This document shows, piece after piece, positions 20,238-44,133 of a DNA stretch of 64,000 nt. Numbering within the stretch: position 1 is the first letter of the stretch; each line of letters starts with the position of its first letter. The stretch is from Neorhizobium galegae. Its GTDB lineage: Bacteria > Pseudomonadota > Alphaproteobacteria > Rhizobiales > Rhizobiaceae. The stretch is from contig NZ_CP090095.1 in assembly GCF_021391675.1 (NCBI RefSeq), forward strand, positions 1,245,501 to 1,309,500. The letters run 5' to 3'. The notes beneath the pieces were generated by a model, which ran no database searches, was not told the DNA's origin, and was given only the letters and a program-made list of their open reading frames with translations. The position numbers and the translations under genes are program-made.

Positions 20238-20343
20238 GGCGGCGGGAGGCATTCGCGAAAGGGATGGTTGAGCGCCCGGTGCTCTAGCACCGCATTTTAC
20301 GGCGCGGAAGCGACAAACGGACAACAGCGGAAAGGACTTCCAC

Positions 20344-23425: not shown

Positions 23426-23884
23426 AGGTCTCGGTGACAAGTTGTTCCCTGTTCGATCCCCCGGAGGGGATCGAACCCGCCGTAAGGCGGAACTGATGTT
23501 CCCCGTCCCGATAAGCCTCGCAAGCCATGTAAGGAAATCGATGTCACCCGAAGGGCCGGAGGACGGTCGAGGGCCGTAGCCCGAGATCCGTTGACCTCGA
23601 TTTCCGTCATGGCATGCTGGTTCTCGGGAAAGGAAGAAAACAAGAGTATGCGAGCGCGCTCGCATTCCGCTTAAAACGAAGTCGGGCCGGGTCAGCGGTG
23701 CCTCATTGCTGAGCTGGCTCGGTCCGACTTCGGCTTAAAAAGAATGTCGGGCGTTAGCCCGTCCGTTTTTCTTACGACCCGAAGGGGCGTCGGACCTGCT
23801 CCGTAGCGAAGCGAAGGAGTGGGCTTTGAGAGCGGCTTCCAAAAGGCGGCTTTCGCTTGACGCAGCCGACTGAAAATTTCTGCA
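23426..23884. other. Noncoding stretch packed with hairpins
   Basis: Seven structures follow each other. They are: stem GTTCGATCCC/GGGATCGAAC at 23451-23476; CCGCC-GTAA-GGCGG at 23477-23490; GGAAC-TGAT-GTTCC at 23489-23502; a long stem CCATG..GGAAATCGA..GTCA paired with TGAC..TCGATTTCC..CATGG at 23525-23612; an 18-bp palindrome at 23648-23665; CGAAGTCGG/CCGACTTCG with inner TCAGC/GCTGA at 23677-23732; and CGGGC-GTTA-GCCCG at 23748-23761 followed by TCCGTTTTTCTT, terminator-like. No convincing ORF. It may be a structured RNA or a cluster of protein-binding palindromes. Confidence 0.6.
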
Positions 23885-24427
23885 CTACCGCGTGGACGAA
23901 TTTTGCTTACGTCCACGAAGGTTCGGCCGCGGTGCTCTTGCTTTTGAATCGTCCTGCACTGAATTCCACCGTATCGCCCAACCTGCCAGCCCTTGAGGCC
24001 GAATGAACTCAACTCCCTTGGACAGGATATGCTGAACCAAGAAAAGGCGCGTCTCACGCTCTACCGATTCTTCTTCAGCCTCGACCCTCCGAACAGTGGA
24101 CACGCTCAAACTGGCGTCGACACCCAACGACTTTTGGGAATGTTGCAACCCCACTCGAGCGGCCCGAATTAGGCGTGCTGGTACATCGCTCTCGCCTGTA
24201 TCCGCTGATTCGATGATGCTCCAGCCCTCACCATCATGCGGCGGCAGAAATCTCAGACCACGGCGCTTGAAGTAGTCGACGAGCGATCGGTGCACTGCGG
24301 GGGACGACGGGGTGGTCTCCGCACGCTGAATAGCCCGTCTCGAACGTTTGCTCGCAAGCGCCATCGCATCCTGGCTTTCACCAAGAAGCTCTCTTGCTGC
24401 TTTTAGCATTAACGGGGGCACCCTCAT
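23885..24427 (-). CDS. DNA-binding regulator with two tandem HTH units
   Basis: This 180-aa protein contains two similar halves. The first has MLKAARELLGESQDAMA, then RRAIQRAE and RRGLRFLPPHDGEGWSI; the second has LIRAARVGLQHSQKSLG, then STVRRVEAEE and SKGVEFIRPQGLAGWAI. Each half looks like an XRE-type HTH followed by a short strand. A single-protein tandem regulator is inferred. It is divergent from the DUF6634-AAA genes and probably controls the shared 24428-24580 region. An alternative start is 24409. Confidence 0.65.
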   Translation of the reverse strand: MRVPPLMLKAARELLGESQDAMALASKRSRRAIQRAETTPSSPAVHRSLVDYFKRRGLRFLPPHDGEGWSIIESADTGESDVPARLIRAARVGLQHSQKSLGVDASLSVSTVRRVEAEEESVERETRLFLVQHILSKGVEFIRPQGLAGWAIRWNSVQDDSKARAPRPNLRGRKQNSSTR

Positions 24428-24580
24428 AAGGATTGAATGTCATTGCCCCGTCCTTAAATCAAATCAGTTGACGCCGAGAATGAAAAGGCGTCTACAAAGA
24501 TCGAAAAGGCGTCCTGAAAGAATGATTTTGAGCGAATCCTTGATGCCCTTAACTCGAATCACGTTTCTAATAGGTGCCCC

Positions 24581-24892
24581 GTGCCTTCTCCAAAATTCTT
24601 CGCCGACATCGAAATCGTAGAAACGCTTGCAACAGACCTTGCAGCTCTTCGGGACGGTGCCTTCGATTTTTCACGGCTCGGGGATGCTCCGCTAATCAAT
24701 GACGCCTCTTTCGGAAAACGCGCTGCGGTCTGCCTGCGAGGATTCGTTGCAGGTCACCCACGCCTTTCAGACGGTGAGCGGGTCATGACATCTGAACTTT
24801 GGGCAACGTGCGAAGTGGGGGGACTTCTTTTCGCACGCACGCTTTCGCGTTGGTATCGCATTGAGCGCGCAGTCGATCTTGGCAAACATTGA
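24581..24892 (+). CDS. DUF6634-like small protein
   Basis: This 103-aa protein contains ALRDGAFDFSRLGDAPLIND, GHPRLSDGERVMTSELWA and ARTLSRWYRI. The HPRL..G..(V/I)xTSxLWA...ARTLSRxYR pattern is the DUF6634 family (recalled, not searched), which often sits beside AAA+ genes in rhizobia. Function unknown. It starts with GTG. It is the first gene of the presumed AAA+ operon. Confidence 0.6.
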   Translation: MPSPKFFADIEIVETLATDLAALRDGAFDFSRLGDAPLINDASFGKRAAVCLRGFVAGHPRLSDGERVMTSELWATCEVGGLLFARTLSRWYRIERAVDLGKH

Positions 24893-24984
24893 AACCTGCA
24901 CCCGTTCTCGCCGCCTCTCTTCTCCCTCCACCCCCTGAGCCCTTGTTTTCAATTTGCCGTCGCCGGCGGCTCGGAGACCTATTA

Positions 24985-25140
24985 ATGAAGAACCGTATCG
25001 CTCCCGTCGAGTTTTCCGAACTTCGGCGAAACCCCGCAAAGTTCATGATGACCTGCGCGCTAAAAGCTGCCCTTCGTCAGACGCCACAGTTTCAGCAGAA
25101 TGCAAAGGGCATAATGCTCTGTATTGTTGACAAGAACTGA
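24985..25140 (+). pseudogene. N-terminal fragment of the AAA+/M41 protein, ended by in-frame TGA
   Basis: This fragment of 51 codons starts at an ATG behind GGAGAC and ends at the TGA at 25138-25140. The reading frame continues without a shift into the AAA+ protein, which otherwise lacks a sensible start. The fragment is rich in Ala/Leu helices (MMTCALKAALRQTPQFQQN), as in the N-terminal domains of such ATPases. It is best read as the true N-terminus separated by one stop codon. Confidence 0.6.
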
Positions 25141-25167
25141 ATCTGGCACGCGAAGGCCGCAGCATCG

Positions 25168-26850
25168 TTGTTGCTGACCGCAAGTCGCGAGGTTTTCAGC
25201 TTTGATGATTTTCGAACGCCGGTTCAGGTGTACGGCGTGCACTCCTCTCGGTCAAAATCGAAAGATGCCGAGTTCGTCTCAATCATTCGTCCAGAGCATC
25301 AAGCGATCTACCTTGCCCCTTCGCTAAGCGCCTTCCCAAACGCTCTCGTCCTCGCTGCTGATCAGACCGTTTATGTCGCTCCGCCGAACGGTCGGCATTT
25401 CAGGGCGGCGCGTAGGGTTTGTGGGGGCAAAGACGTCTCGATCGACGTCGCGAACGAGATTTCCAGACAGGAAGCCGAGATCGTGACCGGTCTCGCCGCA
25501 CGAAATTCGTTGTCAACTTTCGACCTCTCGCTTCTTGAGAGGCCAGCAGCGGCGGCGCTTCCTGACCGAGGACCGAAGCTTTCCGATCTTCCGGGTTATC
25601 GCCCCGCGCGCGCGTGGGCGGCAGACCTTGGACAGGACATAGAGGATTGGCGCGATGGAGGGCTAGACTGGTCGGCCGTCGACAAGGGTTTCCTTCTTGC
25701 CGGACCTCCAGGCACGGGCAAGACACTCTTCGCCACCGCACTGGCGAACGAGCTGGGATTTGATCTCATTTCGACCAGCGTAGGCGACTGGCAGGGGAAG
25801 AAGGACGGCCACCTCGGGAACCTGTTGCGCGCAATGTCCGAATCCTTCGCCGACGCCGGTTCGCGCAAGGGTGCGGTTCTCTTCGTCGACGAACTGGACT
25901 CACTTGGCGACCGGAGCAGGATGAGAGAGGACCACGCCTACTACGAGGGCAATGTGATCAACCGGTTTCTCGAGTTGGTCACGCAACTCTTCCAGCAAGA
26001 AGGCGCGATCCTCATCGGAGCAACCAACCATCCACAGCTTATCGATCCGGCTGTCTTACGGTCCGGCCGACTGGAAACGCACGTCTATCTTGATCTTCCG
26101 GATGACGTCGAGCGGTCGGAGATACTCTCGTATCATCTCGATCGTATCCTTTCGCCGCAGGACCTCCGACTACTTACGGACAAACTCACGCTCGCGACCG
26201 CGTCCGATCTCGAAAAGCTTGCCCGCAAGGCGAAGAGAACTGCGAGAGCTCGCAAGGGGTCGATCACCACCGGCGATGTCCAGGCGTCGCTGCCCGCGCA
26301 GCTTCCGCTTCCCGAGTCTGTGCTTCATCGGATTTGTGTGCACGAGATGGGGCACGCCCTCATGGTGATGTCGTCCGGAGTGGCCGATGTCATCGATATC
26401 CGGGTTGAATCCCATATGGTCGAAGGCACCCCCATCCAAGATGGAGGGCGTGTGCGGTATGAGATGCATAATGCAGCACTTCCGACGGAAAAGGATTTGC
26501 TGGCAAAAATAAGAATTTTCCTCGGGGGAACTGCTGCCGAGGACGTCGTGTTCGGCGTCAGGTCTATCGGCGCCGGCGGCAGCGAAGGAAGCGACCTCGA
26601 CCAGGCAACGAGACTCGCCTACCGGTTCGTCGGGAGCTACGGGTTGGGCAAGTCGCTGCGGTATCAGGTGGACGCCTCCAAAGTTGACAATCGGTTTGTG
26701 CCGTCCGCGGAACTTCGACAGGAGGTCGACGCAATCCTTGCACGCGAATATCGCGCCGCGAAGGAACTAATGGCGAAGGAGAAGGCCCGGCTTCTGCGAT
26801 TGTCGGCAGAACTCGTCGTCGACCGCAAGATGCGGATCGAGAAATCGTAG
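25168..26850 (+). CDS. Soluble FtsH-like AAA+ ATPase with M41 zinc peptidase domain
   Basis: This ATP-dependent protease of at least 560 aa has an N-terminal domain (1-140) and an AAA+ module. The module shows Walker A GPPGTGKT at 179-186, Walker B VDELDS at 240-245, sensor/arginine-finger segment GATNHPQLIDPAVLRSGR and lid helices. The peptidase domain carries the zinc site HEMGH at 392-396, with Asp 476 as likely third ligand. No membrane helix is visible, unlike FtsH. The only start is TTG; the first ATG is near residue 222. The frame is open back to a TGA at 25138 and beyond it to 24985, so the gene may be a nonsense-split allele. Confidence 0.82.
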   Translation: MLLTASREVFSFDDFRTPVQVYGVHSSRSKSKDAEFVSIIRPEHQAIYLAPSLSAFPNALVLAADQTVYVAPPNGRHFRAARRVCGGKDVSIDVANEISRQEAEIVTGLAARNSLSTFDLSLLERPAAAALPDRGPKLSDLPGYRPARAWAADLGQDIEDWRDGGLDWSAVDKGFLLAGPPGTGKTLFATALANELGFDLISTSVGDWQGKKDGHLGNLLRAMSESFADAGSRKGAVLFVDELDSLGDRSRMREDHAYYEGNVINRFLELVTQLFQQEGAILIGATNHPQLIDPAVLRSGRLETHVYLDLPDDVERSEILSYHLDRILSPQDLRLLTDKLTLATASDLEKLARKAKRTARARKGSITTGDVQASLPAQLPLPESVLHRICVHEMGHALMVMSSGVADVIDIRVESHMVEGTPIQDGGRVRYEMHNAALPTEKDLLAKIRIFLGGTAAEDVVFGVRSIGAGGSEGSDLDQATRLAYRFVGSYGLGKSLRYQVDASKVDNRFVPSAELRQEVDAILAREYRAAKELMAKEKARLLRLSAELVVDRKMRIEKS

Positions 26851-26944
26851 CCGTGCGGCGCATAGCAATGGCGATATCGCTCCACTCACCCAAGGATTCG
26901 ACGGTCATGCAATCCTTCTGCAGCCCGATCAAGGGACGACTTTC

Positions 26945-27418
26945 ATGATCCGAATTTCAGAAATTGCGGCTCGATATCCGCGTCTGTTCTTGAGCCATCT
27001 ACCGTTCGGCGTCGAATGTGGAGACGGCTGGGCGGACATTATCTACGCGTTCTTCGCAACCGTCGAGGAAGTGGTCGCGGCGGAGGGCGGGACGTTTCAT
27101 CTGCTTCAGATCAAGGAGAAGCTCGGAGCATTGAGAATCTATTTCCGAACGACTGAGATTCCCAACAGGGGCGTCGCGGCGATAGATCGGGCCTATGGAT
27201 TGGCCGAGGCTCGTTCATTTCACATTTGCGAGCATTGTGGTCGCCGGGGTTGTCTCACGTATAATGGGATGATGTATGCCACGCGGTGCGGTGAACATGC
27301 TGAAGAACTGGAATCCCAGCCAGTGCTTCCGACACCACGTATTACCATCGTGACTGCGGCAAGGGCCGTGCTTTACGATCCCGACGCCGATCCGTTCGTC
27401 GCCATGCGATCAATTTGA
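26945..27418 (+). CDS. Conserved hypothetical protein with zinc-ribbon-like Cys cluster
   Basis: This 157-aa protein has a segment FGVECGDGWADIIYAFFATV, then LLQIKEKLGALRIYFR, and a Cys cluster CEHCGRRG...TRCGEH near residues 98-120. The same layout (GDGW..I....L, VKEK.G.LR.Y, CE.CG) occurs in a widespread uncharacterised family, some members of which may be immunity-like proteins; this is recollection. Downstream of the AAA+ gene in the same direction. No function is assigned. Confidence 0.6.
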   Translation: MIRISEIAARYPRLFLSHLPFGVECGDGWADIIYAFFATVEEVVAAEGGTFHLLQIKEKLGALRIYFRTTEIPNRGVAAIDRAYGLAEARSFHICEHCGRRGCLTYNGMMYATRCGEHAEELESQPVLPTPRITIVTAARAVLYDPDADPFVAMRSI

Positions 27419-27677
27419 TTGAGCGGCAACGGGAGATGATGCGTAGGACGGTTGCAGTTTGCCGTGCCCAAGTCTGCAAAACGTTTTTGGTTCTTCAGCA
27501 TTCGCTGTTATAAAACCTTGAAGGTGAGCGAATATTTACGCTGCAACCAAGCGTCGTATTTGTTCGCACCCCTGCCACGCCAAGCGCGCGTTCGCGGGCT
27601 TCAGTAACCCAAGCAAAAGTGCAATCCTTAAGCGCGGGTATACAGGCAGCCGGAGCCCCTGACCATGAGAGGGTGAC

Positions 27678-27884
27678 ATGGCAGAGGAGACGTTCATGGT
27701 CAGGAAGTCAGTGGATCTAAGGAACGCGGAACAAAAGGAACGGCAGCGTTTGCTGCGGGAGAGGCAGAAGGCCGAGCGCCGACCGGGGTGCGATGATGTC
27801 GCCCGCGTCGCGCTGCACTGGCTCATCTCGAAGGCGGTCAACACTGGCGCGTGTATTCGGATTCGACCGATGTATGACGGATGA
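27678..27884 (+). CDS. Small basic hypothetical protein
   Basis: This 68-aa ORF has an N-terminal highly charged helix (NAEQKERQRLLRERQKAERR) and a second helix (VARVALHWLISKAV). The ATG follows GAGAGGGTGAC. Composition is protein-like, but coding is unproven. The flanking 27419-27677 shows nothing convincing. Confidence 0.4.
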   Translation: MAEETFMVRKSVDLRNAEQKERQRLLRERQKAERRPGCDDVARVALHWLISKAVNTGACIRIRPMYDG

Positions 27885-28457
27885 CATGAAGAACTGCATC
27901 GGATCGGCCCATCCTGTCGCACACGCCCTTGGCCACCGGCTGTCGCTGTGTCCGCCCTGGTTTACCAGTTGAAACCATCTCGGTTGGTGGTGGTGCGATT
28001 CCTATGTCCGGGTAATCGGTAACGGTGGCGGCACGTCTGCTGTCGATCGTCGTCGCGCGCCTCGCCCCTGATGGCCCCTTTGTTATCGGAATGACGACAT
28101 CATCGAGCGTCGATGGGGACCGTGCATTGCGGCCGGTGACACCTACATCGACCCGGTACGCTCAAGTCACGGATATATTCAAGGCGCTCGACTCGAGGGC
28201 ACGGCGATCGGGTTTCCTCTCTCTTCGTTATGCGGTTATGCGCGCTTACTGTTCGAGAGAAAATAGCACCGGCACGTGGGAAGAAGGTTAAGACGTCGTT
28301 GTACGTGCTAGAATAGAGGGGTTCTAGTAGACGTTCACTAGCGGCTCTGTGGAGGGAATATTACGGTAAACTAATCTGTTGACTTTTTTCGGTTGTCATA
28401 GAATGATGAATGCGCGCATTTGTTGATTTTCATATTTTTTTATATGGGAGAAGTCCG
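27885..28457. other. AT-rich intergenic region ahead of the RiPP locus
   Basis: No credible gene was seen; a short ORF at 28025-28291 lacks a ribosome site and protein-like composition. GC falls sharply from about 28290 onward, marking the start of the RiPP segment. TTGACT (28379-28384) and TAGAAT (28399-28404) are promoter-like but only 14 nt apart. GGGAGAAG at 28446-28453 is the ribosome site of the precursor gene. Confidence 0.5.
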
Positions 28458-28664
28458 ATGAATGATGATGACGTTACAAGACAACTTAACGCACTTCGCG
28501 ATGGTATTGCCCCACATATAACTCCTGAGATGCTTTCTGGGCTAGAAAATCTAACTGTGAGAGAGGTTAGAAAGTTTGCTACAGAGCCTGGTGAGGCGAG
28601 TTCTCAAGGAGAGAAGCCCGCGAGCATCGTTACTGTTGTAATTTTAGTTTTCGCTGCGACATAA
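28458..28664 (+). CDS. Putative RiPP precursor peptide
   Basis: This 68-aa peptide follows a strong GGGAGAAG site. Residues 1-48 form a charged leader (MNDDDVTRQLNALRDGIAPH at the start, then LTVREVRKFATEP). The C-terminal 15 residues, PASIVTVVILVFAAT, are hydrophobic and beta-branched with Ser 56, Thr 59 and Thr 68. There is no Cys. Its TAA stop abuts the ATG of the radical SAM gene. Position, size and the downstream LanB and B12-rSAM enzymes argue for a precursor; no known leader family is recognised. The cleavage site is not evident (no GG motif). Confidence 0.65.
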   Translation: MNDDDVTRQLNALRDGIAPHITPEMLSGLENLTVREVRKFATEPGEASSQGEKPASIVTVVILVFAAT

Positions 28665-30650
28665 ATGCCTGCGAAGTTGGACAAATGGCCCAGACCTTTT
28701 GCGGTAAGTGACAACGGCAATTGTAAAGTATTGCTTGTGGTAATGCCTTGGTCACCCCCGCAATTTCCAGCGCTCGGAGTTACGCTCTTGCAGAGTATAC
28801 TCAGACGCGATGGTATCGAATGTGATCAGCTTTTTGCAAATGTTATCTTTTCAAAGTTTCTCGAAGATGACATTAACATCGAGCGCCAGCTAACCCGATT
28901 GCCGGTTAGCGAGATCGCGTTCACCCCGTTTTATTTTGATACCGAGATTGAAGTGGCGGCAAAGCTGCTGCAAGATTATATTGCCCCATTTGCGGTCGAT
29001 CCCTCTTTGTACCCACTGGATCGTTTCACCAAGGTTGTCTCTGCGGCTGGCGACTTGCTTGACTATCTTGCTAGCAATGTCGACTGGCAAGCCTACGACG
29101 TAATTGGCTTTTCCGTCATGATGCAGCAGACGGTGCCGTCACTCGCACTTGCAAAGCGCATAAAAGCGATAAGCCCGAACAGCTCAATAGTGTTTGGTGG
29201 TCCCAATACATCCAGCCCGATGGGTGAGGAAATTCTACGATCGTTCGGAGGTGTCGTTGATTATATTGCCGAAGGAGAGGTAGATGGAACAATCACGCAA
29301 CTTGTCCGACACATAAGAACGAAAGGGGTGGGCGAAAAGCTCCCTCCTGGTATCTGGTATCGTGACGACGATGGAAAGGTAGTGAGTTCCGGAAGTCCGA
29401 CGCCATTTCACTCACTTGACTCGTTGCCGATGCCCAATTTCGACCCCTTCTTTGACCAACTCTCTCTATTCGACGTGCAACATATCGCGCCGTTCATTCC
29501 GTTTGAGACATCACGTGGCTGCTGGTGGGGAGCTAAACATCACTGCACTTTTTGTGGTATTGGTGATGACATCATGCGATTTAGGTCAAAATCGGACGAA
29601 CGCGTTCTTGAAGAAATCCGATATTTGACGTCACGGCACACACTGCCTGACATGTTTGCTGTCGATAGTATTATTAACTATAGGTTCTATCAAACTCTAT
29701 TGCCTGCACTTGCGGCCGATCGCGAGCGTGACGAGAGTGATATAGCGTTTTTTTTCGAATGCAAATCAAACATCCGAAGAGAACACGCCGTCATCTTTCG
29801 AAAAGGCGGCGTCCGTGAAGTACAGCCTGGGATCGAAAGCTTTAGCGATCACATACTAGAGTTAATGGACAAGGGAACGACGGCTGCGAGGCAATTGCAG
29901 TGCCTGAAAGTTCTCGCTGAGCAGCACATTTCTGTTGCATGGAACATTATTTATGCAAACCCTGGGGAGACTGTCGAGGATTACCAGGAAATAATGGATG
30001 CGATCCCGTATATGCATCACATCCCTCCGCTGCACGCGGGCGGATACATCCCGATGCAGGTCAATAGGTACGCGCCATATCACGAACGTCCTGAGAGTTA
30101 TGGGGTCACGAATATCACCCCTAGGCCGTATTACAAACAGTTGTTTCCAGACCCGACTGTTGATCTTGATAAGATCGCGTTTTATTTCGACTACGAACTT
30201 GAGGGAGGGTGGTCAGAGGAGTTACTTCTTGCGCATCGCCGCCTGCGGGACGCTTTGGATGATTGGCGAAGTGTCTTTATTCCGGAATCGCTAGTTCAGA
30301 AGCGGGGTCCCGGTTTCACTGTGATTACTGACAAGCGCGTCCTGAGCTTGAATTGCGGAATGCCGGACAAGGTTGAATTATTGGGAATAGAGCATGAAGT
30401 ATTCGCCGCCTGTGATGAACTAACAACGGTAGACGAACTTGTTAGTAATCTTAGCCCGCTTTTCGATGATGCGTTGATCCGGATAACGCTGTCAGACTTG
30501 GTAGCGAAGCGATTTATCTACCGCTCGAAATCAGGACAATTGGTCAATACGCCTCTGCGATTCGAGGGCGACGGCAGTAGTATGAGGACACTGCAAAAGA
30601 AAAATCGTTCCGTGTTCGCCAAAACAGTAATGGTGGAAGCGAGCGTCTAA
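28665..30650 (+). CDS. B12-binding radical SAM enzyme, RiPP maturation C-methyltransferase type
   Basis: This 661-aa protein has an N-terminal cobalamin-binding-like domain (about 20-230, with VMPWSPPQFPALGVTLLQ and SIVFGGPNTSSPMG). The radical SAM core carries Cys 286, 294 and 297 as CX7CX2C. This spacing is characteristic of the RiPP maturation radical SAM 1 family, which includes peptide C-methyltransferases of the PoyB/PoyC type. The core continues through QPGIESFSDHIL and AWNIIYANPGETVEDYQEI. The last 100 or so residues form a separate domain (RGPGFTVITDKR...) that recurs in the next protein. It probably methylates unactivated carbons of the precursor. It overlaps the next gene by one base (TAATG). 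Confidence 0.85.
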   Translation: MPAKLDKWPRPFAVSDNGNCKVLLVVMPWSPPQFPALGVTLLQSILRRDGIECDQLFANVIFSKFLEDDINIERQLTRLPVSEIAFTPFYFDTEIEVAAKLLQDYIAPFAVDPSLYPLDRFTKVVSAAGDLLDYLASNVDWQAYDVIGFSVMMQQTVPSLALAKRIKAISPNSSIVFGGPNTSSPMGEEILRSFGGVVDYIAEGEVDGTITQLVRHIRTKGVGEKLPPGIWYRDDDGKVVSSGSPTPFHSLDSLPMPNFDPFFDQLSLFDVQHIAPFIPFETSRGCWWGAKHHCTFCGIGDDIMRFRSKSDERVLEEIRYLTSRHTLPDMFAVDSIINYRFYQTLLPALAADRERDESDIAFFFECKSNIRREHAVIFRKGGVREVQPGIESFSDHILELMDKGTTAARQLQCLKVLAEQHISVAWNIIYANPGETVEDYQEIMDAIPYMHHIPPLHAGGYIPMQVNRYAPYHERPESYGVTNITPRPYYKQLFPDPTVDLDKIAFYFDYELEGGWSEELLLAHRRLRDALDDWRSVFIPESLVQKRGPGFTVITDKRVLSLNCGMPDKVELLGIEHEVFAACDELTTVDELVSNLSPLFDDALIRITLSDLVAKRFIYRSKSGQLVNTPLRFEGDGSSMRTLQKKNRSVFAKTVMVEASV

Positions 30651-31411
30651 TGGTCGTATCAATCAGTCCATTTGATTTTTATTTACAACGTGCGGCTGAC
30701 GATCAGTCGTTGAGTGTTGACTTGGGATTGATAGACCTGTCTGTCCCGGAAACGCTTGACCTTATGTCCAATTTCAGGACGGCTAGATCCCGTCAATCGT
30801 TGGCTTTTTCGATTAGGTGCCAACTTCGGCTGAGCGATGCCACGCGGTATAACCTCAAAGAGTTGTCAACAGCGGGCGTAACACAAGTAACGTTGTCCGA
30901 CCCAAACCAGTGGCGTCAGTTGCCCCATCGAGATGTGATGGTTTTGCGAGCGATAAGAGCAGCCAACGAATACGCGATCGAAGTGATTTGGTTATTGCGT
31001 GAATTCGCAGAAATTGCCGGTATCGACTCGAACTACGCCGCTCGCCTTTTTCATCTAAGTCCTCCAACTTACGACCCCAAAAATCCGTCGTTCAGTGTAT
31101 CTTGGCGAGAATCTCTTCTTCCTCGCTCCCTGACACATGCGCGAGGTCCCGGTTTTATTCGTATCTTTGATCAGCGAAATAACTCGCGTTTTGTTACGTT
31201 GGCCGGGCTGCAGTACCGTCTGTGGCAGTTGGCAGAGGGCGGAATTTCACTCGATCAAATACTGGAAGTAGGCGGCGGCGGGCGTTCGACCATCGCAAGA
31301 TTTTTTACGGCACTGGAAGCACAGGAACTTGTATATATTTCGGATGGATTTGTGGTTCCACTGTCTCTTCGCCGCAGCTTGTCAGAGAGTTGGACCTCAG
31401 GCCTACAGTGA
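30650..31411 (+). CDS. RiPP-locus accessory protein sharing a C-terminal domain with the rSAM enzyme
   Basis: This 253-aa protein has no catalytic motif. The N-terminal half (1-150) is unrecognised. The C-terminal 100 residues align by eye with the end of the radical SAM enzyme: SLTHARGPGFIRIFDQR against SLVQKRGPGFTVITDKR, followed by comparable helices (GLQYRLWQLAEGGISLDQIL). The shared part may bind the leader or partner enzymes. It resembles the DUF5825-type neighbours of RiPP rSAM genes, but I cannot confirm this. It is coupled on both sides (TAATG and GTGA). Confidence 0.7.
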   Translation: MVVSISPFDFYLQRAADDQSLSVDLGLIDLSVPETLDLMSNFRTARSRQSLAFSIRCQLRLSDATRYNLKELSTAGVTQVTLSDPNQWRQLPHRDVMVLRAIRAANEYAIEVIWLLREFAEIAGIDSNYAARLFHLSPPTYDPKNPSFSVSWRESLLPRSLTHARGPGFIRIFDQRNNSRFVTLAGLQYRLWQLAEGGISLDQILEVGGGGRSTIARFFTALEAQELVYISDGFVVPLSLRRSLSESWTSGLQ

Positions 31412-33726
31412 GAAACAAAGCTACGGTCGTACTTGCACCCTATTTTATTCAGAGGCGGGCGATCATAAGAGGATCGTCGTTTGAGAGCATATTTGAAACT
31501 GAGTTTCATAGCGAGCTCATTAAACTCTCAGGACTCGAGCACAGAATCACCGATGCCGCTGCAGGGCTTGCCGACGCAATATTCAAACGTGTAAGAGGTG
31601 AACAAGATACCGACCTCCGTCGACGCTTGCTGGCTGCGAAAAGAGGTATCCACAACCACGCTGCGGTCAGCATTGAATCTCTCGACATCGAAACAACCTT
31701 ATCGTCCGGGATGCGTTCTTGGAACATGCTGCTGGAAACGCGCGATGCACTCCACGCTGAGGTCGCTGCCTTATATTCTGCCTGCATTGCCAGCGTAGGC
31801 TACCGAGCCTATGAACTGAGCAAATCCTTCCCGCTTCAGCGGTCGTTGAGAGTTTTGAACCCGCGGCTTGCGGATGCTAAAGTCTCGTCTCTTCTTGGAA
31901 AGAATGGGCTTTCCCGTATCGGCTTATCACTCGTATCTTATGCTGTCAGAGGGCTGACGAAGGCTGACCCGTTTGCCGGGTTGGGTCACATAACAGTCGG
32001 AACGTTCCCAGACGTCCAGAGCATACACTCGCCAAGGCGGTGTGGCGCAACGCTAGACCAGTCGAGAGCAATCTGCTGCGAAGAGGGCCAAGCCAATGCT
32101 AATAACTCGTTGTGGATCGTAAACCCAACAATTGAGATCCAACCAGAGACTGGAGAAGCTCGATACTTTGACACTGAGTGGCATACCGGCGACGATGCTC
32201 TCAATACGATGTATCTGCCCGAAATATGGAGACTTCTCTTGCAATCCGTTCTGGCTCCCCTCGGCCCATCGGATTATCTAAAAATCAAGCGGCAAGTCGC
32301 TATGGTCCTTTCCCTCCAAGATAGTGATGCCGATTATTTGATAGCTCGGCTTGAGAAGCTGGGTCTTTTGATTCGGTGTGACGGTCACCTTCCTAATAGC
32401 TCCGCTTTTGAATACCAACACCTCGGAGCGATCCACGCAAATAATAGTTGTGCGAAAGGCGGAATGACAACTGAAAGAGACATAGTTCCTCCGCCCAGTG
32501 AATTTATGCCAATTTGCAACATATTACATCTTTTCAACTATCAAATGGCGTGGATCGATTCTGTCTCAGAGTTTTTTTTAAGCAGATGGGGTGAGAATGG
32601 CGAAACTGGGTTGCTTCAATTCTTCGAAGAGTTCTGGCAGCATTCAAAGATCAACAACGCTCTTCTGACTTTTGAGTCAGAGACGCATGGCTATAAGGAG
32701 ATGAAGCGCCAGAGAGGTGAACTCATATCAAAGCTGGCATCGATACTTGAAGTCGAATGTGGCCAAGAGGTCTCCGTCAGCGAATTGTTTCAAAACTACG
32801 CAGCCGAACGACCCGGTGCCGCCGTTATGCGAAGCTCCGCATTCTCGGGGCATATTCTGGATAGACGGTTCATTCTTGATCGCGTGCTGCCAGGGTATGG
32901 AGCGATGTTCGCAAGATGGAGTTCGGATGATCATGGGCCGAACTCTGCATCGGAGCTTTTACGATTACTACGCACCAATCTCGTCAACCAACAAGGGTCG
33001 AATGAATTTATCGAGCTTGTGGGCAGTTTTGGATTCGAGCCTCAGGTCAACCCGCGGGTGACCGCGCGACGCCTAATTCACCCTTCAGATCTTAAGCGAA
33101 CTGGGGCCGATCCCAATATTAAATTTGGCGACGTTCGTGTCGTGTTCGACGAACGCGAGCATCGGGTGTTTATGATGGATCGTCTGAGTGGAAAGTACTT
33201 GGTTCCGATCCCCATGGGTACTATTGGGCCACAGCATACTCCGCCGCTTTATCGTTTCCTATGCGCTATTGGAACTGCGTTTTGTCCCGAACTACCTCTA
33301 TTAGAACACCTCGAAGCTAGGATGCCGCCACTGGCCCACCAACAAGTGCGACGCTACCCCCGTCTGACCGTAGGCCCAATAGTCGTGATGCGGAGCAGTT
33401 CTTGTGTCGCCACAGTTGAGCTATGTAGCATCCTTCAACTCAACAACCCTGTATTGCGGGCGAAAGAGCTTTTGAAGTGGCTCGACGAGCGCAGATTACC
33501 GTCCCAATGTTTTGTTAGGAGCTTGCTCGCACACTCTGCACCGAATAGACGCACTGCCTCTGCCCACAAGCCGTTGTTTGTAAATTGGCAAAATCCAGCC
33601 TCAGTGGAACTGTTACGCAAGCACATTGGGAGGATGGGCGCAGAGATTTCGATTACCGAATCGCTCCCGACCCTAAGCAAAGAGAGCGAACCGGTCACCG
33701 AAACAATAGTCGAATTATTCTGGTGA
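31408..33726 (+). CDS. LanB-type lantibiotic dehydratase, glutamylation part
   Basis: This 772-aa protein is the size of the tRNA-Glu-dependent glutamylation unit of split dehydratases. It begins near APYFIQRRAIIRGSSFESI. The signature YAVRGLTKADPFAGLG at about 179-193 matches the conserved R..(T/F)K..PF...G block of LanB proteins. C-terminal sequence includes RLTVGPIVVMRSSS. It would activate precursor Ser/Thr by glutamylation. The GTG at 31408 overlaps the previous stop (GTGA); an ORF extension to 31222 lies inside the previous gene and is rejected. It is coupled to the elimination gene by another GTGA. Confidence 0.82.
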   Translation: MRNKATVVLAPYFIQRRAIIRGSSFESIFETEFHSELIKLSGLEHRITDAAAGLADAIFKRVRGEQDTDLRRRLLAAKRGIHNHAAVSIESLDIETTLSSGMRSWNMLLETRDALHAEVAALYSACIASVGYRAYELSKSFPLQRSLRVLNPRLADAKVSSLLGKNGLSRIGLSLVSYAVRGLTKADPFAGLGHITVGTFPDVQSIHSPRRCGATLDQSRAICCEEGQANANNSLWIVNPTIEIQPETGEARYFDTEWHTGDDALNTMYLPEIWRLLLQSVLAPLGPSDYLKIKRQVAMVLSLQDSDADYLIARLEKLGLLIRCDGHLPNSSAFEYQHLGAIHANNSCAKGGMTTERDIVPPPSEFMPICNILHLFNYQMAWIDSVSEFFLSRWGENGETGLLQFFEEFWQHSKINNALLTFESETHGYKEMKRQRGELISKLASILEVECGQEVSVSELFQNYAAERPGAAVMRSSAFSGHILDRRFILDRVLPGYGAMFARWSSDDHGPNSASELLRLLRTNLVNQQGSNEFIELVGSFGFEPQVNPRVTARRLIHPSDLKRTGADPNIKFGDVRVVFDEREHRVFMMDRLSGKYLVPIPMGTIGPQHTPPLYRFLCAIGTAFCPELPLLEHLEARMPPLAHQQVRRYPRLTVGPIVVMRSSSCVATVELCSILQLNNPVLRAKELLKWLDERRLPSQCFVRSLLAHSAPNRRTASAHKPLFVNWQNPASVELLRKHIGRMGAEISITESLPTLSKESEPVTETIVELFW

Positions 33727-34583
33727 AAAGTCGTTGGCATTCCTTTCATCTTTTTTCGGACGGTCCCTTGGGTGACGTCGTCATGGCCCTGCGCCCGTGT
33801 CTCGAGCGTGCCTCGAGCCACGGCATTCCTTGGTTTTTCGTAAGGTATTGGAACGGCGGTAATCATATCCGCTTAAGACTATTTTCGACCGAGGCCGAAA
33901 TTGCTTCACTACGCCCCTTGATCTGTTCTGTAGCCGGGTTGCCCAAACCGAGGAGGGAGCGCGAAAAGACGTATGCCGAAACAATCTCTCGAATGTCTAG
34001 GGTCGAAAATCTTGGCCTCGGTATGTCAGAGGTTGCAGAGGATCTAATGCCGAGCGGGGCCGTACAGGAGCGCGACTATTTTTACGATGAATATCGATAT
34101 GGTGCTTGGAGCAGAGAGGACCTCGAAAGGCACTTTTGCGCCTCTAGTGCAATCGCATTTGAGGTACTAACTAGGGTAGGCCACCAGCGAGAGCGCCTGA
34201 TTGCCGAGTCATACGCGCTATCATACTCAGGCCTACTAGCACCTTTTGACGAAGATTGCCCCATTGCCGAACTGCAAAACCTTCTGGCATCAGCAAAGTC
34301 ACTATGGTCTATAGAGCCCCGTCTGAAGGAAAATGAAGTTCAATGGTTAAACAACATCAGTAGAAGATTTCGGACGACCAAGACACTGTACTCATTTTGG
34401 GCAACAGAAGTTGAAGGTCTGCTGTCGAAGCTGATGTTAGACGATAGACAAAATCGATCTCGTCTTCGATCCTTGCGTTTAGATCTTTGCCATCTCCTAA
34501 ACAATAGGCTCGGTGTGTCTATTCAGGACGAGCTTAGCATGTACGCAGCTATCGCTGAGGCACTGAAACGAACCCAAATCTGA
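33723..34583 (+). CDS. LanB C-terminal elimination domain protein (thiopeptide-type)
   Basis: This 286-aa protein corresponds to the SpaB-C/thiopeptide-type biosynthesis domain. WHSFHLFSDGPLGDVVM opens it, and FFVRYWNGGNHIRLRLFS at about 38-55 matches the conserved FxRY....H.R.R motif. RDYFYDEYRYGAWSRE matches the YxxExxRYGG-type block. It should eliminate glutamate from glutamylated Ser/Thr to give dehydroamino acids, completing the split LanB. A homologous fold also forms thiopeptide pyridine synthases, but no azoline enzymes are present. GTG start at the GTGA overlap. Confidence 0.82.
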   Translation: MKSRWHSFHLFSDGPLGDVVMALRPCLERASSHGIPWFFVRYWNGGNHIRLRLFSTEAEIASLRPLICSVAGLPKPRREREKTYAETISRMSRVENLGLGMSEVAEDLMPSGAVQERDYFYDEYRYGAWSREDLERHFCASSAIAFEVLTRVGHQRERLIAESYALSYSGLLAPFDEDCPIAELQNLLASAKSLWSIEPRLKENEVQWLNNISRRFRTTKTLYSFWATEVEGLLSKLMLDDRQNRSRLRSLRLDLCHLLNNRLGVSIQDELSMYAAIAEALKRTQI

Positions 34584-34703
34584 TTTGAGCCCGTGAGCAT
34601 CAAAACGCAAGAAACCTACCAAGACTTAAACAAAGTGCGAGCAGCGAGACGCCCGACACCACCGCGGCGCGGAGACGATTCCGCTTCCCGTTACGTTTTG
34701 CGG

Positions 34704-35022
34704 CTACTCGGCGAAGTCGACGAGATACTCAGACCCCGGCCGCTGGCCGGTAAGAACCAGATGTCCCCTGCTCGGGTGCAAGCCACGTAGAGCAGCCGCC
34801 GTTCCGTCTCGTATACGTCGTCAAGCTCGGCTGCGTCGGCGGCAATCTTGCCACCGATCGCCGTCGCGAGGATCTGGTTGTAGAGTTTCTGTTTCGGGAA
34901 GTCGTCCCCACCAAGACGCTGGTCCAGTATCCAAAAAACCGTCTTTCCTTATGACGCCCAAGTTAAGAGGTCTGTCGCCAGCACCTTCCTGCTTCAGATT
35001 TAGGCCAGCTTGCCTATAGAGC
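34704..35022 (-). pseudogene. 3' remnant of a UvrD-like helicase, two frameshifts, cut by IS21
   Basis: On the minus strand three frames must be joined: AGDRPLNLGVIRK, then KTVFWILDQRLGGDDFPKQK...ETERRLLYVACTRA, then HLVLTGQRPGSEYLVDFAE and a stop. The ERRLLYVACTRAR.HLVLTG stretch is helicase motif VI of the UvrD/Rep superfamily. Shifts lie near 34945 and 34770. The 5' part of the gene is lost at the left end of IS21 (35023). A 65-codon plus-strand ORF at 34593-34790 overlaps it and is probably spurious. Confidence 0.65.
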
Positions 35023-35120
35023 TGTGTTCCGGCGTGCAAATTTGACCCCGTTGGCGGGGTAATCGGCGTCCAATTTTGCCCCCCTCAGATTTCATCTGAC
35101 CATCCGGCTTTTGACGGCGG

Positions 35121-36632
35121 ATGGAGCGGGAGTTGAAGCGAGTGGATACGATTGCGCGTGTTCGACGGGCCTTCCATGTGCAGGGCTGGTCGGTGAAGAA
35201 GATTGTCCGGGAACTCCACGTGTCGCGCAACACGGTTCGCAAGATTCTGCGTTCCGACGAGACCGATTTTGCCTATGAACGCGAGCGACAACCGCTGCCG
35301 AGGGTCGGAGCCTGGAAGGCCGAGATCGAGCGGTTTCTGGTTGCCAATGAGGGCAAGCCGTCGCGTGAACGGCTAACGCTGATCCGGATTTACGAGGAGG
35401 TTCGGGCACTCGGCTACGATGGCAGTTATGACGCGATCCGGCGATACGCCAAGACCTGGGCGAAGAACCGGGGAGCCGTGACGGCGGAAGCCTATGTGCC
35501 CCTCTATTACGCGCCAGGAGAAGCCTACCAGTTCGACTGGAGCCACGAGATCATTCTGGTCAACGGGGTGACAACGACCGTGAAGGTCGCGCACGTCCGG
35601 CTCTGCCACAGCCGGATGATGTTCGCCCGAGCCTATATGCGTGAGAGCCAGGAGATGGTGTTCGATGCCCATGACAAGGCCTTCGCCTTCTTCCGTGGCA
35701 CCTGCACGCGCGGCATCTACGATAACATGAAGACTGCGGTCGAGGCGGTGTTCGTCGGCAAGGAGCGACAATACAATCGCCGCTTCCTGCAGATGTGCAG
35801 CCACTATCTGGTCCATCCCGTTGCCTGCACGCCCGCATCCGGATGGGAGAAGGGACAGGTCGAGAACCAGGTCGGTCTCGTGCGCGAGCGCTTCTTCACG
35901 CCACGCCTACGGGTCAAAAGCCTGGAGGAGCTGAACGTCTGGCTGCTCGACAAATGCGTCGCCTACGCCAAGGCACACCGCCATCCCGAGCAGACCGAGC
36001 GGATGATCTGGCAGATTTTCGAGGAGGAGCGCGGCAGCCTGGTGCACTACGTTGGACCGTTCGATGGCTTCCACTGCGTTCCCGCCTCGGTGTCGAAGAC
36101 CTGCACGGTCCGCTTCGACAACAACAAATACTCGGTCCTATCGACGGCGGTCGGCCGCCCTGTTGAGGTTCACGCCTATGCCGAGAAGATCGTCATCAGG
36201 CAGGACGGCGTGAACGTCGGTGAGCATCCTCGTTGCTTTGGCCGTGGCGAGGCGATCTACGATCCCTGGCATTACGTCCCTGTTCTGGCTCGTAAACCCG
36301 GTGCTTTGCGCAATGGTGCGCCGTTCCGGGAATGGGTCTTACCCGCAGCGATGGAGAAAGTGCGCCGGCGGCTGAAGAGCGTCCATGATGGTGATCGGCA
36401 GATGGTCACCATCCTCGGCTGTGTTCCCACCGACGGTCTGGCGGCTGTCGATGCTGCCTGCCAGGAGGCTTTGGATCACGGCGTCTGCTCAGCCTCGGTG
36501 ATCATCAACATTCTGGCCCGCAGCCGTGATCCGGCTCCGGCCGCAACCCTGCAAACCCCGGATGCGCTGCGTCTGACCCATGAACCGGTCGCCGATTGCG
36601 CACGCTATGACAGCCTCAGGAGGGCAAGCTGA
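35121..36632 (+). CDS. istA: IS21 transposase IstA
   Basis: This 503-aa DDE transposase has an N-terminal HTH ([20 protein letters not shown], then SRNTVRKIL). The integrase core has the first Asp in YQFDWSHEI, the second in [10 protein letters not shown] and the Glu in [14 protein letters not shown]. The C-terminal DNA-binding domain is present. Length is standard. It overlaps istB by one base (TGATG). It appears intact. Confidence 0.95.
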
Positions 36633-37366
36633 TGGAACGCACGCAAGTTCTCGAACTGATGAGCACGCTGAAGCTCTATGGAATGCGCAGCGCCTACGAC
36701 GAGGTCATGGGCAACGGCATCAAACGGCAGCACGAACCGCCGCGCATCGTCGGCGATCTCTTGCAATCGGAGATCGCCGAGAAGCAGGCACGCTCCATTC
36801 GCTACCAGCTCAGCATCGCCAAGCTGCCGCTCGCCAAGGACATCGATGACTTCGACTTCGCCGATACGCCCGTCAATGAATCCCTGGTGCGGGAGCTGGC
36901 AACCGGCACCTTCGTCGCCGATCAGCGCAATGTCGTTCTCGTCGGCGGCACGGGAACCGGAAAGAGCCACCTCGCCATCGCAATTGCCCGTGCGTTGATC
37001 CGCAACGGAACACGCGGGCGCTTCTTCAACGTCGTCGATCTGGTCAATCGGTTGGAAACGGAAACGCGTAGCGGCAAGCAAGGGCGGACGGCCGACTATC
37101 TCAACCGTCTCGACTTCATCATCCTCGACGAACTCGGATACCTGCCTTTCGCCCAGGCCGGAGGTCAGCTCCTGTTCCATCTGATCAGCAGGCTCTACGA
37201 GCGCACGTCGATCATCGTCACCACGAACCTGGCGTTCGGCGAATGGCCATCAGTGTTCGGGGACGCCAAAATGACGACAGCACTTCTGGACCGTCTGACC
37301 CATCATTGCGAGATTGTCGAAACCGGAAACGAGTCCTGGCGCTTCAAGAACCGCTCTCAAGGCTAA
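36632..37366 (+). CDS. istB: IS21 helper ATPase IstB
   Basis: This 244-aa AAA+ helper for IstA is DnaC-like. It has Walker [12 protein letters not shown], Walker [14 protein letters not shown], sensor 1 IIVTTNLAF and the LLDRLTHH region near the end. It controls target selection and strand transfer. Complete length. Confidence 0.95.
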
Positions 37367-37442
37367 AGCCGAAGACGATCATCACCCGCACTTGGCCTAC
37401 CCTCTGCAACCCCGGCCAGCGCCGGGCAGGCCAAGCGCTGAT

Positions 37443-38483
37443 CTACACCACCAGGGGGGCAAAATTGGATGCCGATAAGGGGGGAATTTTGGACGCCGAT
37501 TGACAGCGTTGGGCGTAATATGAACGCAGGCACGTCCGCGAGAAGCCTGTTTCGAAATCTATGCTGATGATCGCGTAGCCGTTGTACCATTGCTTCCGGT
37601 GGGTAAATACCGCGCCTGCCTGGTTCGAAAGGAGCTTGCCCTCGAAGCCGATGACCTGCTTGGTCTTGGGGTCATGCATATGCCCGAACAGATGCAGGTC
37701 AGCATGCTTTTCGAGGATGCGGCCGAGGTAAGCGCCGCCCGTTTCCGTGAAAGCCGCGAGCGGGTGGTGGGTCGTGAATATCTTGAATGCGCCGTCGGTG
37801 AGATACGGCAACGCTTCCTCAATCGCGAACTCGGGAATTACCATCCTCCCCTCATCGGCGCCGAAGTCGGAGTGCCCGCCGGTCGAAAGCATCGACGAGT
37901 TTAGAACGACGACGTTCGTGTTCAACGCCTCGATGTAGGTCACTGTGCAGAAGAGGTTTTCGAATACCGCCTTGCTGCCTGATATATACGCCTGCAGGTT
38001 GAGATATTTCGCGAATTTCGCAGCATGGGCGGGCTGGAATTTACCCTTGTCGAAGAAACCATTGATGTTGTCGAGATCGTCGGCCTTCGCCTGCCACTCT
38101 ACGTGTTCAGCCTTGTAGTCAATGATCGTGTCCTGCTGGACGTCGTGGTTACCAGGAACGATGAAAAGCCGTTCGTTCGTGGTATTCGTTGCCTTCAGTA
38201 GCGGAGCGAGCAGAAAGTCGTAAGCTGCCGCATGCTCGTCCACGGGAGGGCCGTTCGTGAGGTCGCCGCTGAAGAGAATGATGTCCGGCGTTTTGTTGCC
38301 GACGCACTGTGATTTGACGTCTTGGAGCAAGGCATCCACGACCATCTTCTGGTCTCGAAGCTTCTTGCCGCTGAAATGGAAGTCGCTGATATGCAGTATG
38401 GTTATGCGCTCGGGTGAGGTCATGCGGTCGGGATTCTCTAACATGCTAGTCGACATCGTGGTTGCGCCGGCGAAATTTGTCAT
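37443..38483 (-). pseudogene. Calcineurin-like metallophosphoesterase, 3' end cut by IS21
   Basis: The protein has all five metal motifs: DFHF, GDLTNGP, PGNHD, TTHHPLAAF and GHMHDP. The first is close to the N-terminus (ITILHISDFHFSG). Native sequence runs to about LRSYYAQR at 37506. The last 20 or so codons (CQSASKIPPLSASNFAPLVV) are IS21 end sequence. The N-terminus is uncertain: ATGs at 38483, 38456, 38444 and 38423 are all possible and none has a strong ribosome site. It may be a phosphodiesterase or nuclease partnered with the broken helicase. The catalytic core is intact, so activity is not excluded. Confidence 0.72.
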
Positions 38484-38961
38484 CTGATTTACAGGATGGA
38501 GCGGGTCCGAAACTTCCGCAATACCATTCCGCGAACATACAACGTTTAACCAGTGCTTCCTGCGATCAGTAGTTGCGACGCAGCGGAGCCATGATTTCCC
38601 GAGCAAAGGCGGTGCGGCTTGTCAGAATTCAACTTTCCATTATGAGCTGTCGATCAGTGAAGGAAGTCCAACTACGCTTTTTCGTGGCTTCTGAGGTTCT
38701 CCGTAAGCGGCTTGTCCTCAGTTCGCTTGCGTCGGATATTGTCCGCAATTGAGCAACGAACAAGTTCCAGCTGGGTTTCCCAGGCCTCGCGAGGATTGTC
38801 GAAAAGCTCTACAGAGCATTCGATAAAGATGTGTCCGAATGGAAAGGAATTCTGACCGACGTCAGACTTCTGTTGATGCCTGAGGAAAAAGCTTAGACCG
38901 CGACGGCGGCCGGCGGATAAGTGATCACATCTAAGTTCTCATCATCGCGACGGGCCTGAAT
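38484..38961. other. Gap between metallophosphoesterase and qatD
   Basis: No complete gene is visible. On the plus strand, 38762-38896 reads as the tail of a helical protein (LARIVEKLYRAFDKDV, then WKGILTDVRLLLMPEEKA, stop) with no start codon, so it may be a gene remnant. The rest shows no clear structure. The minus-strand promoter of the metallophosphoesterase should lie near 38500-38600. Confidence 0.35.
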
Positions 38962-39717
38962 CTACGATGTTTTGAGCGAGAAATTTTCGGCTTGCTCACC
39001 CAAAGTCCTGAGGTTCGTCTGAAGTTGCAGGCGTGTTTCATGCTCATCGCAATTCCACAAGCGAGATAAAGCGGCGACGGTTTCAGTTACCGCTGCCGTT
39101 GGATAGTGTTCTCCAGAGGTCGAAGCGAAGGGAGCATCGGTTTCGGTTAGTACCCTATCGCGTGGGAGCCGTTTCATAAATGAGGCTGCTCGTTTGCTCC
39201 TCAACATCGGGAGGCCGACCGAGAACCACGCTCCGATATCAACGGCATTGTCGGCATGCGATAAGGGGCCAGAGAACCAGTGTAGGATCGCCAACCCAGC
39301 GTTACGCCGTCTGGCTAACGCCTCGACCACTTCTCCGCTAGCGTGTCTGCTGTGAATGGACATCACACGCCCGCCCGCCGTAGCGCACGCCAGGAGAATT
39401 TCGTCGAAGACCTCTCTTTGAAGCTTGAGATGCTGGGCATGCTCGTCGCCGCCGTCGATCCCGATCTCCCCGACGTAGCGCGTCTCGCCGAGAAGTCTCC
39501 GGAAAAGACCCATTTCACCGTGGCGCTCCGACACGAGTTGGGGATGAAGCCCCAGAGCCGTCCTGATCCGTTTCTTTCCCTTGGCGAGCAGCGCCGTCTT
39601 CGGGAAAGCTTTGGGCGTGTTCGTCACGGACAGTACATATGTGCCGGAACGATCGATCTCGTCCGCCGCGCGTTCCGGCGACGGAAACAGGTCTACATGG
39701 CAATGGAAGTCGATCAA
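38962..39717 (-). CDS. qatD: QatD, TatD-family nuclease of the Qat defence system
   Basis: This 251-aa metal-dependent hydrolase has TatD ligands in order: DFHCHVDL at the very start, VGEIGIDG, SIHSRHAS, ILHWFSG and TETDAPF. TatD proteins are DNases; in Qat this is the fourth component. The start is a TTG that overlaps the qatC stop (TTGA). It is the last gene of the operon. Complete. Confidence 0.9.
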   Translation of the reverse strand: MIDFHCHVDLFPSPERAADEIDRSGTYVLSVTNTPKAFPKTALLAKGKKRIRTALGLHPQLVSERHGEMGLFRRLLGETRYVGEIGIDGGDEHAQHLKLQREVFDEILLACATAGGRVMSIHSRHASGEVVEALARRRNAGLAILHWFSGPLSHADNAVDIGAWFSVGLPMLRSKRAASFMKRLPRDRVLTETDAPFASTSGEHYPTAAVTETVAALSRLWNCDEHETRLQLQTNLRTLGEQAENFSLKTS

Positions 39718-43559: not shown

Positions 43560-43786
43560 GATTCCTCCACCCTTTCACTTGAGAGATTGGGTTCGGGAAA
43601 TTCCACGGTCAAGGAGGTCGGCGACCTTTCTGGTGCAACGTACGGCTTATGCACTAGAAGTTTTACACGCAGCCTAGTCGACTCGACGCTGAGCATGAAC
43701 TCGCTGTCTACGGGTACTCCCGAAGGTCAATTGTATCCAAAGCTCTGCTACGGCTCGAGCCCGATGAAGAACTCGAAATCAGAGCG

Positions 43787-44047: not shown

Positions 44048-44133
44048 CAGGGGTATGTGCTAAAACAGTTAGAGGTATGCCAGAAAGCCACACCCTAAGT
44101 CCTTGATTTCCTGCCTAAGCCTCTCAAGCGTAG

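Follow-up and report, generated by a model that had tools for sequence, protein, structure and literature searches.

A Neorhizobium galegae gene cluster that may join clavusporin-type C-methylation and split LanB dehydration on a cysteine-free peptide

Within a stretch of 64,000 nucleotides from Neorhizobium galegae (contig NZ_CP090095.1, positions 1,245,501 to 1,309,500 of the forward strand; in the following called the window) we analyzed a locus of five genes for a ribosomally synthesized and post-translationally modified peptide (RiPP), located on the plus strand at positions 28458-34583 (about 6.1 kb). With moderate confidence we read it as a RiPP operon in which a clavusporin-type C-methylation module is joined to a thiopeptide-type dehydration module (split LanB), leading to a linear C-methylated dehydropeptide. 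Judged from the enzyme families, the cluster probably makes a short hydrophobic peptide that is both C-methylated and dehydrated. Each enzyme module is already known separately; what seems to be new is the combination on one Cys-free precursor without a ring-forming enzyme. A literature search with little coverage of subscription journals found no description of both modules joined without azoles, pyridine or thioether.

Gene order and predicted product

Reading-frame analysis and family assignments confirmed the coordinates and the gene list of a first-pass annotation of this DNA, including the overlapping or abutting arrangement of all five genes (Table 1). The precursor, the radical S-adenosylmethionine enzyme (rSAM) and both LanB halves had been named correctly, and the fifth gene, which was left nameless, encodes a DUF5825 protein. 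None of the five frames contains an internal stop. For LanB_C the GTG at 33723 was taken as start codon; a mechanically called frame beginning at 33585 overlaps LanB_N. The genes and their families, the layout of the operon, a number of motif residues and one fold match are established.

Table 1. Features of the locus and of its surroundings (positions in the window).
Feature	Position	Strand	Remarks
RiPP precursor	28458..28664	+	68 aa; GGAG 5' of ATG; no Cys; TAA directly abuts rSAM ATG
Predicted core, residues 55-68, ASIVTVVILVFAAT, behind Lys-Pro	28620..28661	+	suggested by style of DUF5825-locus precursors
B12-binding radical SAM C-methyltransferase (rSAM_ocin_1 family)	28665..30650	+	661 aa; TIGR03975; C-terminus related to DUF5825
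DUF5825 protein	30650..31411	+	253 aa; TAATG overlap with rSAM; PF19142; C-terminal domain with predicted RRE-like fold
LanB_N, putative glutamylation half of split class I dehydratase	31408..33726	+	772 aa; GTGA overlap; profile match
LanB_C / SpaB_C, putative glutamate-elimination half	33723..34583	+	286 aa; GTG start; GTGA overlap; PF14028
Weak promoter-like site TTGACT, 17 nt, AATGAT	28379..28407	+	candidate only; region has 6 sites vs 6.5 +/- 2.3 in shuffles
Low-GC island carrying the cluster, interrupting gene-transfer-agent gene cluster	23365..44148	.	boundaries agree vs three relatives
FtsH-like protein, AAA and peptidase M41 domains	25168-26850		also matches IetA defence ATPase models
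IS21-type element downstream of cluster	35019-37500; istA, istB 35121-37366		
Calcineurin-like phosphoesterase, candidate defence model PDC-S60	37443-38606	-	144.2 bits; beside Qat genes
Qat anti-phage system, complete	38962-43559	-	QatA 648.8, QatB 221.2, QatC 368.1, QatD 280.5 bits

The precursor ends with GEKP-ASIVTVVILVFAAT and its Cys count is 0. In the best 10-mer of the core 8 of 10 residues are V, I, S or T, a value reached within the last 16 residues by 3 of the 344 open reading frames of 40-110 aa in the window, the precursor frame included. No Pfam or NCBIfam model matched the precursor when Nif11- and NHLP-type leaders were sought, a weak test for a peptide of 68 aa.

From these data we infer the substrate, the modification sites and their order, the linearity and release of the product and the activity of the enzymes as follows. 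RiPP recognition element (RRE) domains would bind leader residues 1-54; one would be the domain at the C-terminal end of the DUF5825 protein, and the related C-terminal part of the rSAM might be another. Unactivated Val/Ile carbons within residues 55-68 would be methylated by the B12-rSAM, LanB_N would use Glu-tRNA to load glutamate onto core Ser/Thr (S56, T59, perhaps T68), and elimination of the glutamate by LanB_C would give dehydroalanine or dehydrobutyrine (Dha/Dhb). A host protease may cut behind Pro54, mirroring the Pro junction of precursors from DUF5825 loci (37/55), and the product would remain a linear, hydrophobic dehydropeptide with C-methylations, some 14 residues long. Linearity is the simplest reading because the precursor has no Cys, the genome neither LanC nor a separate pyridine synthase, and the window no YcaO. 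The lack of LanC was confirmed by a genome search with PF05147, which gave no match, and together with the Cys-free precursor it led us to drop a lanthipeptide. The first-pass annotation had also denied a YcaO; this holds for the window, and two YcaO proteins are encoded elsewhere in the genome. Its description of a RiPP locus with C-methylating and Ser/Thr-dehydrating enzyme sets, no cyclase and a hydrophobic Cys-free core is supported. A proteusin was dropped, with no leader match and no epimerase seen, and so was a bottromycin-like system, the window being without YcaO. Scans of the window with Rfam at the gathering threshold and for tRNAs gave nothing.

The methylation module and the clavusporins

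The rSAM matches TIGR03975 with 493 bits (cut-off 282) and PF04055 with 55.8 bits, and with 31.4 bits it is just short of the PF02310 cut-off of 32.1. Its CX7CX2C motif is located at residues 286-297, and its C-terminus matches DUF5825. It directly adjoins the 253-aa DUF5825 protein (PF19142, 38.7 bits, cut-off 25), as in RiPPs of the clavusporin type. This pair of B12-rSAM and DUF5825 protein has been reported for clavusporins (PMC12257519). By family, then, the C-methylation half is not new but the same pair. The C-terminal DUF5825 domain is predicted from a structure model to have an RRE-like fold and to be the leader-binding partner of the rSAM. In our literature search DUF5825 was named in a single work (preprint and article).

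DUF5825 loci were collected from named genomes with one GPGF-type pattern, giving 145 stretches, of which 116 were confirmed by alignment and the best 80 were used; the motif is thus present by construction. In 78 of the 80 loci used, DUF5825 has an rSAM as its same-strand neighbour, and in the two misses (L033, L052) the DUF5825 frame starts 128 and 70 bases from the end of the locus. A pattern written after inspection of the first precursor set detected a short precursor ahead of the rSAM in 62/80 loci and matched nothing in the other 18. The 55 distinct precursors have 26-42 aa and none contains Cys; 52 end near Phe or contain a [VI]P[FIL]R motif, a Pro of the Arg/Lys-Pro type precedes the core in 37, and 33 reach at least 7 V/I/S/T in their richest 10-mer. 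Five loci (L018, L019, L020, L022, L025) carry two different short precursors in tandem ahead of one rSAM. Within 6 kb, 63/80 loci encode a relative of an alpha/beta-fold hydrolase of Streptomyces clavuligerus, which we take for the leader peptidase MpcP. MpcP itself is described as a prolyl oligopeptidase (PMC12951456).

The S. clavuligerus locus (L007), which we infer to be the clavusporin cluster, has an rSAM gene followed by DUF5825, with a 39-aa precursor just ahead of the rSAM. It shares with the Neorhizobium operon the TIGR03975-type rSAM adjoining DUF5825 and a precursor that lacks Cys, precedes the rSAM and has a V/I/T-rich stretch after Lys-Pro. It differs in being without LanB, in its shorter precursor (39 vs 68 aa) and in an upstream alpha/beta-fold hydrolase gene, which is missing here. 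Compared with clavusporin-type precursors in general, ours agrees in its place ahead of the rSAM, the lack of Cys and the style of the core, and disagrees in a longer unrelated leader without sequence homology. The likeness of the core to those of the clavusporin family is one of style and not a proof of homology.

The dehydration module and competing readings

A profile alignment of LanB_N with the LanB_N proteins of eight thiopeptide-like loci extended over the full length (E 3.9e-29, prob 99.8), and residues 1-380 gave E 2.3e-9; as controls, the reversed LanB_N and three shuffles of residues 1-380 remained at E values of at least 0.43. Nine LanB_N loci were at hand, and L118, which is without annotation, was omitted. 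The best PDB match is 6ec7, a lantibiotic dehydratase which we take to be TbtB (44.5 bits over residues 531-754). LanB_C matches PF14028 with 89.7 bits (cut-off 24.4) and contains the motifs HIRLR (48-52), YDEYRYG (121-127) and HLLNNRLG (257-264). Separate proteins for glutamylation and elimination represent the split (LanB-B) dehydratase arrangement, and going by these matches the dehydratase half is a split LanB of the thiopeptide type.

In NisB, dehydration is lost with the exchanges Y80F and H961A and reduced with R83A/M and R87A, while T89A removes about one dehydration and D299A behaves nearly like the wild type (PMC4341554); R786A, R826A and H961A show glutamylation without elimination (PMC4979651). 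The alignments place Y178 of LanB_N at the position of Y80 (Tyr in 4 of the 8 comparators), R181 at R83 (identical in all eight) and K185 at R87 (Lys in all eight), and in LanB_C R52 at R786 and R125 at R826 (Lys in loci L067 and L083, described below). H257 in the HLLNNRLG motif presumably corresponds to H961, and R16 of LanB_N presumably to R14. Activity of the LanB pair is likely, not certain.

LanB proteins were sought in the 80 DUF5825 loci with four query proteins up to 10 kb on each side, several loci being shorter. They were found in two loci, L067 (Streptomyces noursei A-2-1) and L083 (Streptomyces sp. ASQP_92). Each of them is a thiopeptide cluster with thiazolyl-peptide precursors over the cut-off and encodes LanB_N, LanB_C, a second LanB_C-like protein, an rSAM and a DUF5825 protein; by eye, a YcaO-like gene precedes LanB_N in both. 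The second LanB_C-like protein of L083 scored 85.9 bits with the pyridine synthase model NF045556, below the cut-off of 325, and in L083, where this was scanned, an NshR/TsnR methyltransferase was over the cut-off. The operon of N. galegae thus resembles these clusters in having split LanB_N and LanB_C, rSAM and DUF5825 within one cluster, but differs from them in the YcaO-like gene, the second LanB_C-like protein and the Cys-containing precursors found there, and from L083 also in the methyltransferase. At E <= 1e-3 LanB_C of N. galegae matches the first LanB_C of both clusters but not their second. The novelty put forward by the first-pass annotation is limited accordingly: the combination without a ring-former was not found described, but the methylation half is the clavusporin pair, the dehydratase half is of the thiopeptide type, and L067 and L083 contain both together.

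Several observations weigh against an operon with two working modules and a linear product. LanB_N scored 25.6 bits with PF04738, under the cut-off of 28; with 772 aa it falls 87-140 aa short of the eight comparators (859-912 aa), chiefly by a missing stretch after the middle part; it carries Asp187 at the position of NisB T89, where all eight have Ser; and its AlphaFold2 model is of low confidence (predicted local distance difference test score 37.5). LanB_C is just under the cut-off of TIGR03891 (46.0 vs 48.45 bits), and among PDB entries it matches best to a pyridine synthase, TbtD (21.1 bits, E 0.0013, over 70 residues). One of five structure models of the DUF5825 protein was good, and Foldseek returned nothing at E <= 0.001. 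The leader alone has 54 aa vs 26-42 aa for whole precursors in DUF5825 loci, and the core likeness is one of style, 542 of 20000 shuffles being equally rich in V/I/S/T. A hydrolase of the kind taken for the leader peptidase was not seen in the locus, and an exporter was not found among the island proteins scanned, small frames being only partly covered. No relative of the precursor, the DUF5825 protein or LanB_N was found in the searches given below, and the locus may have decayed. Elsewhere in the genome a single sequence matches the S. clavuligerus hydrolase (32% across residues 333-583 of the query), and a major facilitator superfamily protein at 19011-20765 lies outside the island.

The deviating Asp187, the short length and the low Pfam score of LanB_N would also fit a locus in which the methylation half alone works and a clavusporin-like peptide is made, the LanB pair being decayed, newly arrived or in a non-dehydrating role. 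LanB was, moreover, not found in 78/80 DUF5825 loci. Against this stand the intact LanB genes, which overlap their neighbours, and the HIRLR and YRYG motifs kept in LanB_C, and we consider this alternative unlikely.

The match of LanB_C to TbtD raises the question of a pyritide- or thiopeptide-like macrocycle, in which LanB dehydration is followed by condensation of two dehydroresidues to a pyridine and the single LanB_C acts as or replaces the pyridine synthase. The 25.8 bits of LanB_C with NF045556, the LanB_N match to 6ec7 (TbtB) and the thiopeptide nature of both clusters that combine LanB and DUF5825 agree with such a product. LanB clusters with neither LanC nor Cys do give rise to pyritides (PMC11002830); LanB halves, the missing LanC and a Cys-free precursor are common to pyritides and to our locus, which differs in the presence of a C-methyltransferase and in the lack of a separate pyridine synthase in the genome. 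LanB_C is the only PF14028 protein of the genome, and a genome search with NF045556 returned this same protein alone, at 26.5 bits vs the cut-off of 325. In a tree of 13 sequences LanB_C is placed apart from three pyridine-synthase-type proteins (support 0.993) and next to L120c (0.932); the pyridine-synthase side also takes in L119c and L123d, the latter poorly aligned, and two inner nodes are weak (0.155, 0.166). LanB_C also keeps the NNRLG motif, which is absent from the pyridine-synthase-type proteins of the tree. A pyridine product appears very unlikely. Two points, a pyridine synthase as the top PDB match of LanB_C and the presumed nature of the H961 correspondence, make us hold the linear dehydropeptide less firmly, and the pyridine slightly more, than we otherwise would.

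A peptide aminoacyl-tRNA ligase (PEARL) occurs together with a B12-rSAM in the tmo cluster (TmoB/TmoD; PMC11002830). By this precedent LanB_N could act as a PEARL and add an amino acid to the C-terminus of the precursor, which the B12-rSAM would methylate afterwards, the product being a pearlin. The tmo-type clusters share with our locus a LanB-like protein and a B12-rSAM, but here LanB_C and DUF5825 occur as well. PEARLs are typically without an elimination domain (PMC11962472), whereas LanB_C is present here, and the rSAM belongs to the TIGR03975/DUF5825 type, so that we regard a pearlin as highly improbable. Among printed cases, one of the nearest is a cluster of Mucilaginibacter in which two rSAMs occur with a thiopeptide-like dehydratase (PMC9062424). 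It is alike in uniting rSAM and LanB-type dehydratase in one RiPP cluster, and unlike in its two rSAMs, an alcohol dehydrogenase and one precursor with a His-Xaa-Ser motif.

Distribution, genomic island and significance

The precursor, the DUF5825 protein and LanB_N were used as queries against 5.8 billion proteins in a search which needs shared 5-residue words. The sole match of the precursor was itself (one candidate scored, E 0.01), and the DUF5825 protein and LanB_N (7997 candidates scored for the latter) each matched only themselves at E 0.001. Relatives of the rSAM at E <= 1e-40 occur in 2/100 related genomes, its own included; on plasmids they are 28-34% identical (best 40 of 57 records), and among viral contigs there was none. 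DUF5825 was found in 1/385 genomes of the class, namely the own genome, and in 2/398 of the phylum; the second is genome G732, where the match covers only the C-terminus of an rSAM and is below the cut-off. In the 19 kb around this rSAM there was a chance match to LanB_C (E 0.5) and none to LanB_N. The rSAM itself (locus L127, 8028-9932 and 11835-13499) carries a DUF5825-like RGPGF stretch at the C-terminus and lies near a gene that by eye may resemble those of thiazole/oxazole-modified microcins. LanB_C gave 47 pattern matches in genome contigs, none of them a relative, and no match on plasmids, where LanB_N found one LanB with 19.8% identity. DNA of the region 27400-35100 matched 11 of 60 related genomes including the own, the others at query positions 338-407 or from 7446 on and none within the five genes. 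Two rhizobial clusters (L010, L011) contain an rSAM of the same family with 29-32% identity; they differ by an epimerase, in L011 also by a Nif11-type precursor and an NHLP exporter, and by the LanB and DUF5825 proteins present here.

With three proteins matching only themselves and rSAM relatives rare and distant, the locus looks like a singleton and not like a class of the host's relatives. The proposal of a class shared among rhizobia was thus not borne out. The first-pass annotation had named beforehand a precursor conserved nowhere as an outcome that would speak against its reading; for the precursor this outcome was observed at the sequence level, its only match being itself, though enzymes of similar kind and cores resembling those of the family occur in other loci.

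The cluster is located in an acquired island of the chromosome with a GC content of 0.49-0.53 near the cluster, compared with about 0.61-0.67 outside. Alignments of three relatives with the window stop at 23364 and resume at 44147-44149, and therefore 20.8 kb replace some 2.6 kb within a gene-transfer-agent cluster. The interrupted tail/host-specificity gene retains a frame of 694 aa, whereas the five relatives with loci have 1267-1360 aa; a second copy is absent from the genome. The neighbouring IS21 element is 93-96% identical to plasmid copies (best 15 of 209 records), and its left end has four more matches in the own genome. The AAA/M41 protein 1.6 kb upstream was considered as a candidate leader peptidase; it looks FtsH/IetA-like. 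Complete Qat genes share the island, but the link from peptide to defence is one of position alone.

The adjoining IS21 element, the island setting, the missing relatives and the exporter and leader protease not seen nearby would also suit a horizontally moved, decaying remnant without a product in this host, an explanation that overlaps in part with the methylation-only alternative. All five frames are, however, open across 6.1 kb with their overlaps kept, and we judge a remnant to be quite improbable.

Beyond the joined operon, we tentatively propose, at somewhat less than an even chance, an undescribed RiPP class of linear peptides with B12-rSAM C-methylations on Val/Ile and LanB-made Dha/Dhb, in which DUF5825 would be a detached RRE partner descended from the methyltransferase's own C-terminal half. 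So far it would have been found once, as cargo of an island which also bears phage defence, inside a gene-transfer-agent cluster. If this is true, two tailoring modules from separate RiPP families would act on one short hydrophobic substrate without a ring-forming enzyme, and the locus would be a natural case showing what dehydration contributes when no cyclase follows. It would also provide a minimal five-gene set of 6.1 kb for C-methylated dehydropeptides, and the predicted RRE-like fold of DUF5825 would give a testable role, leader binding, to a family still named for its unknown function.

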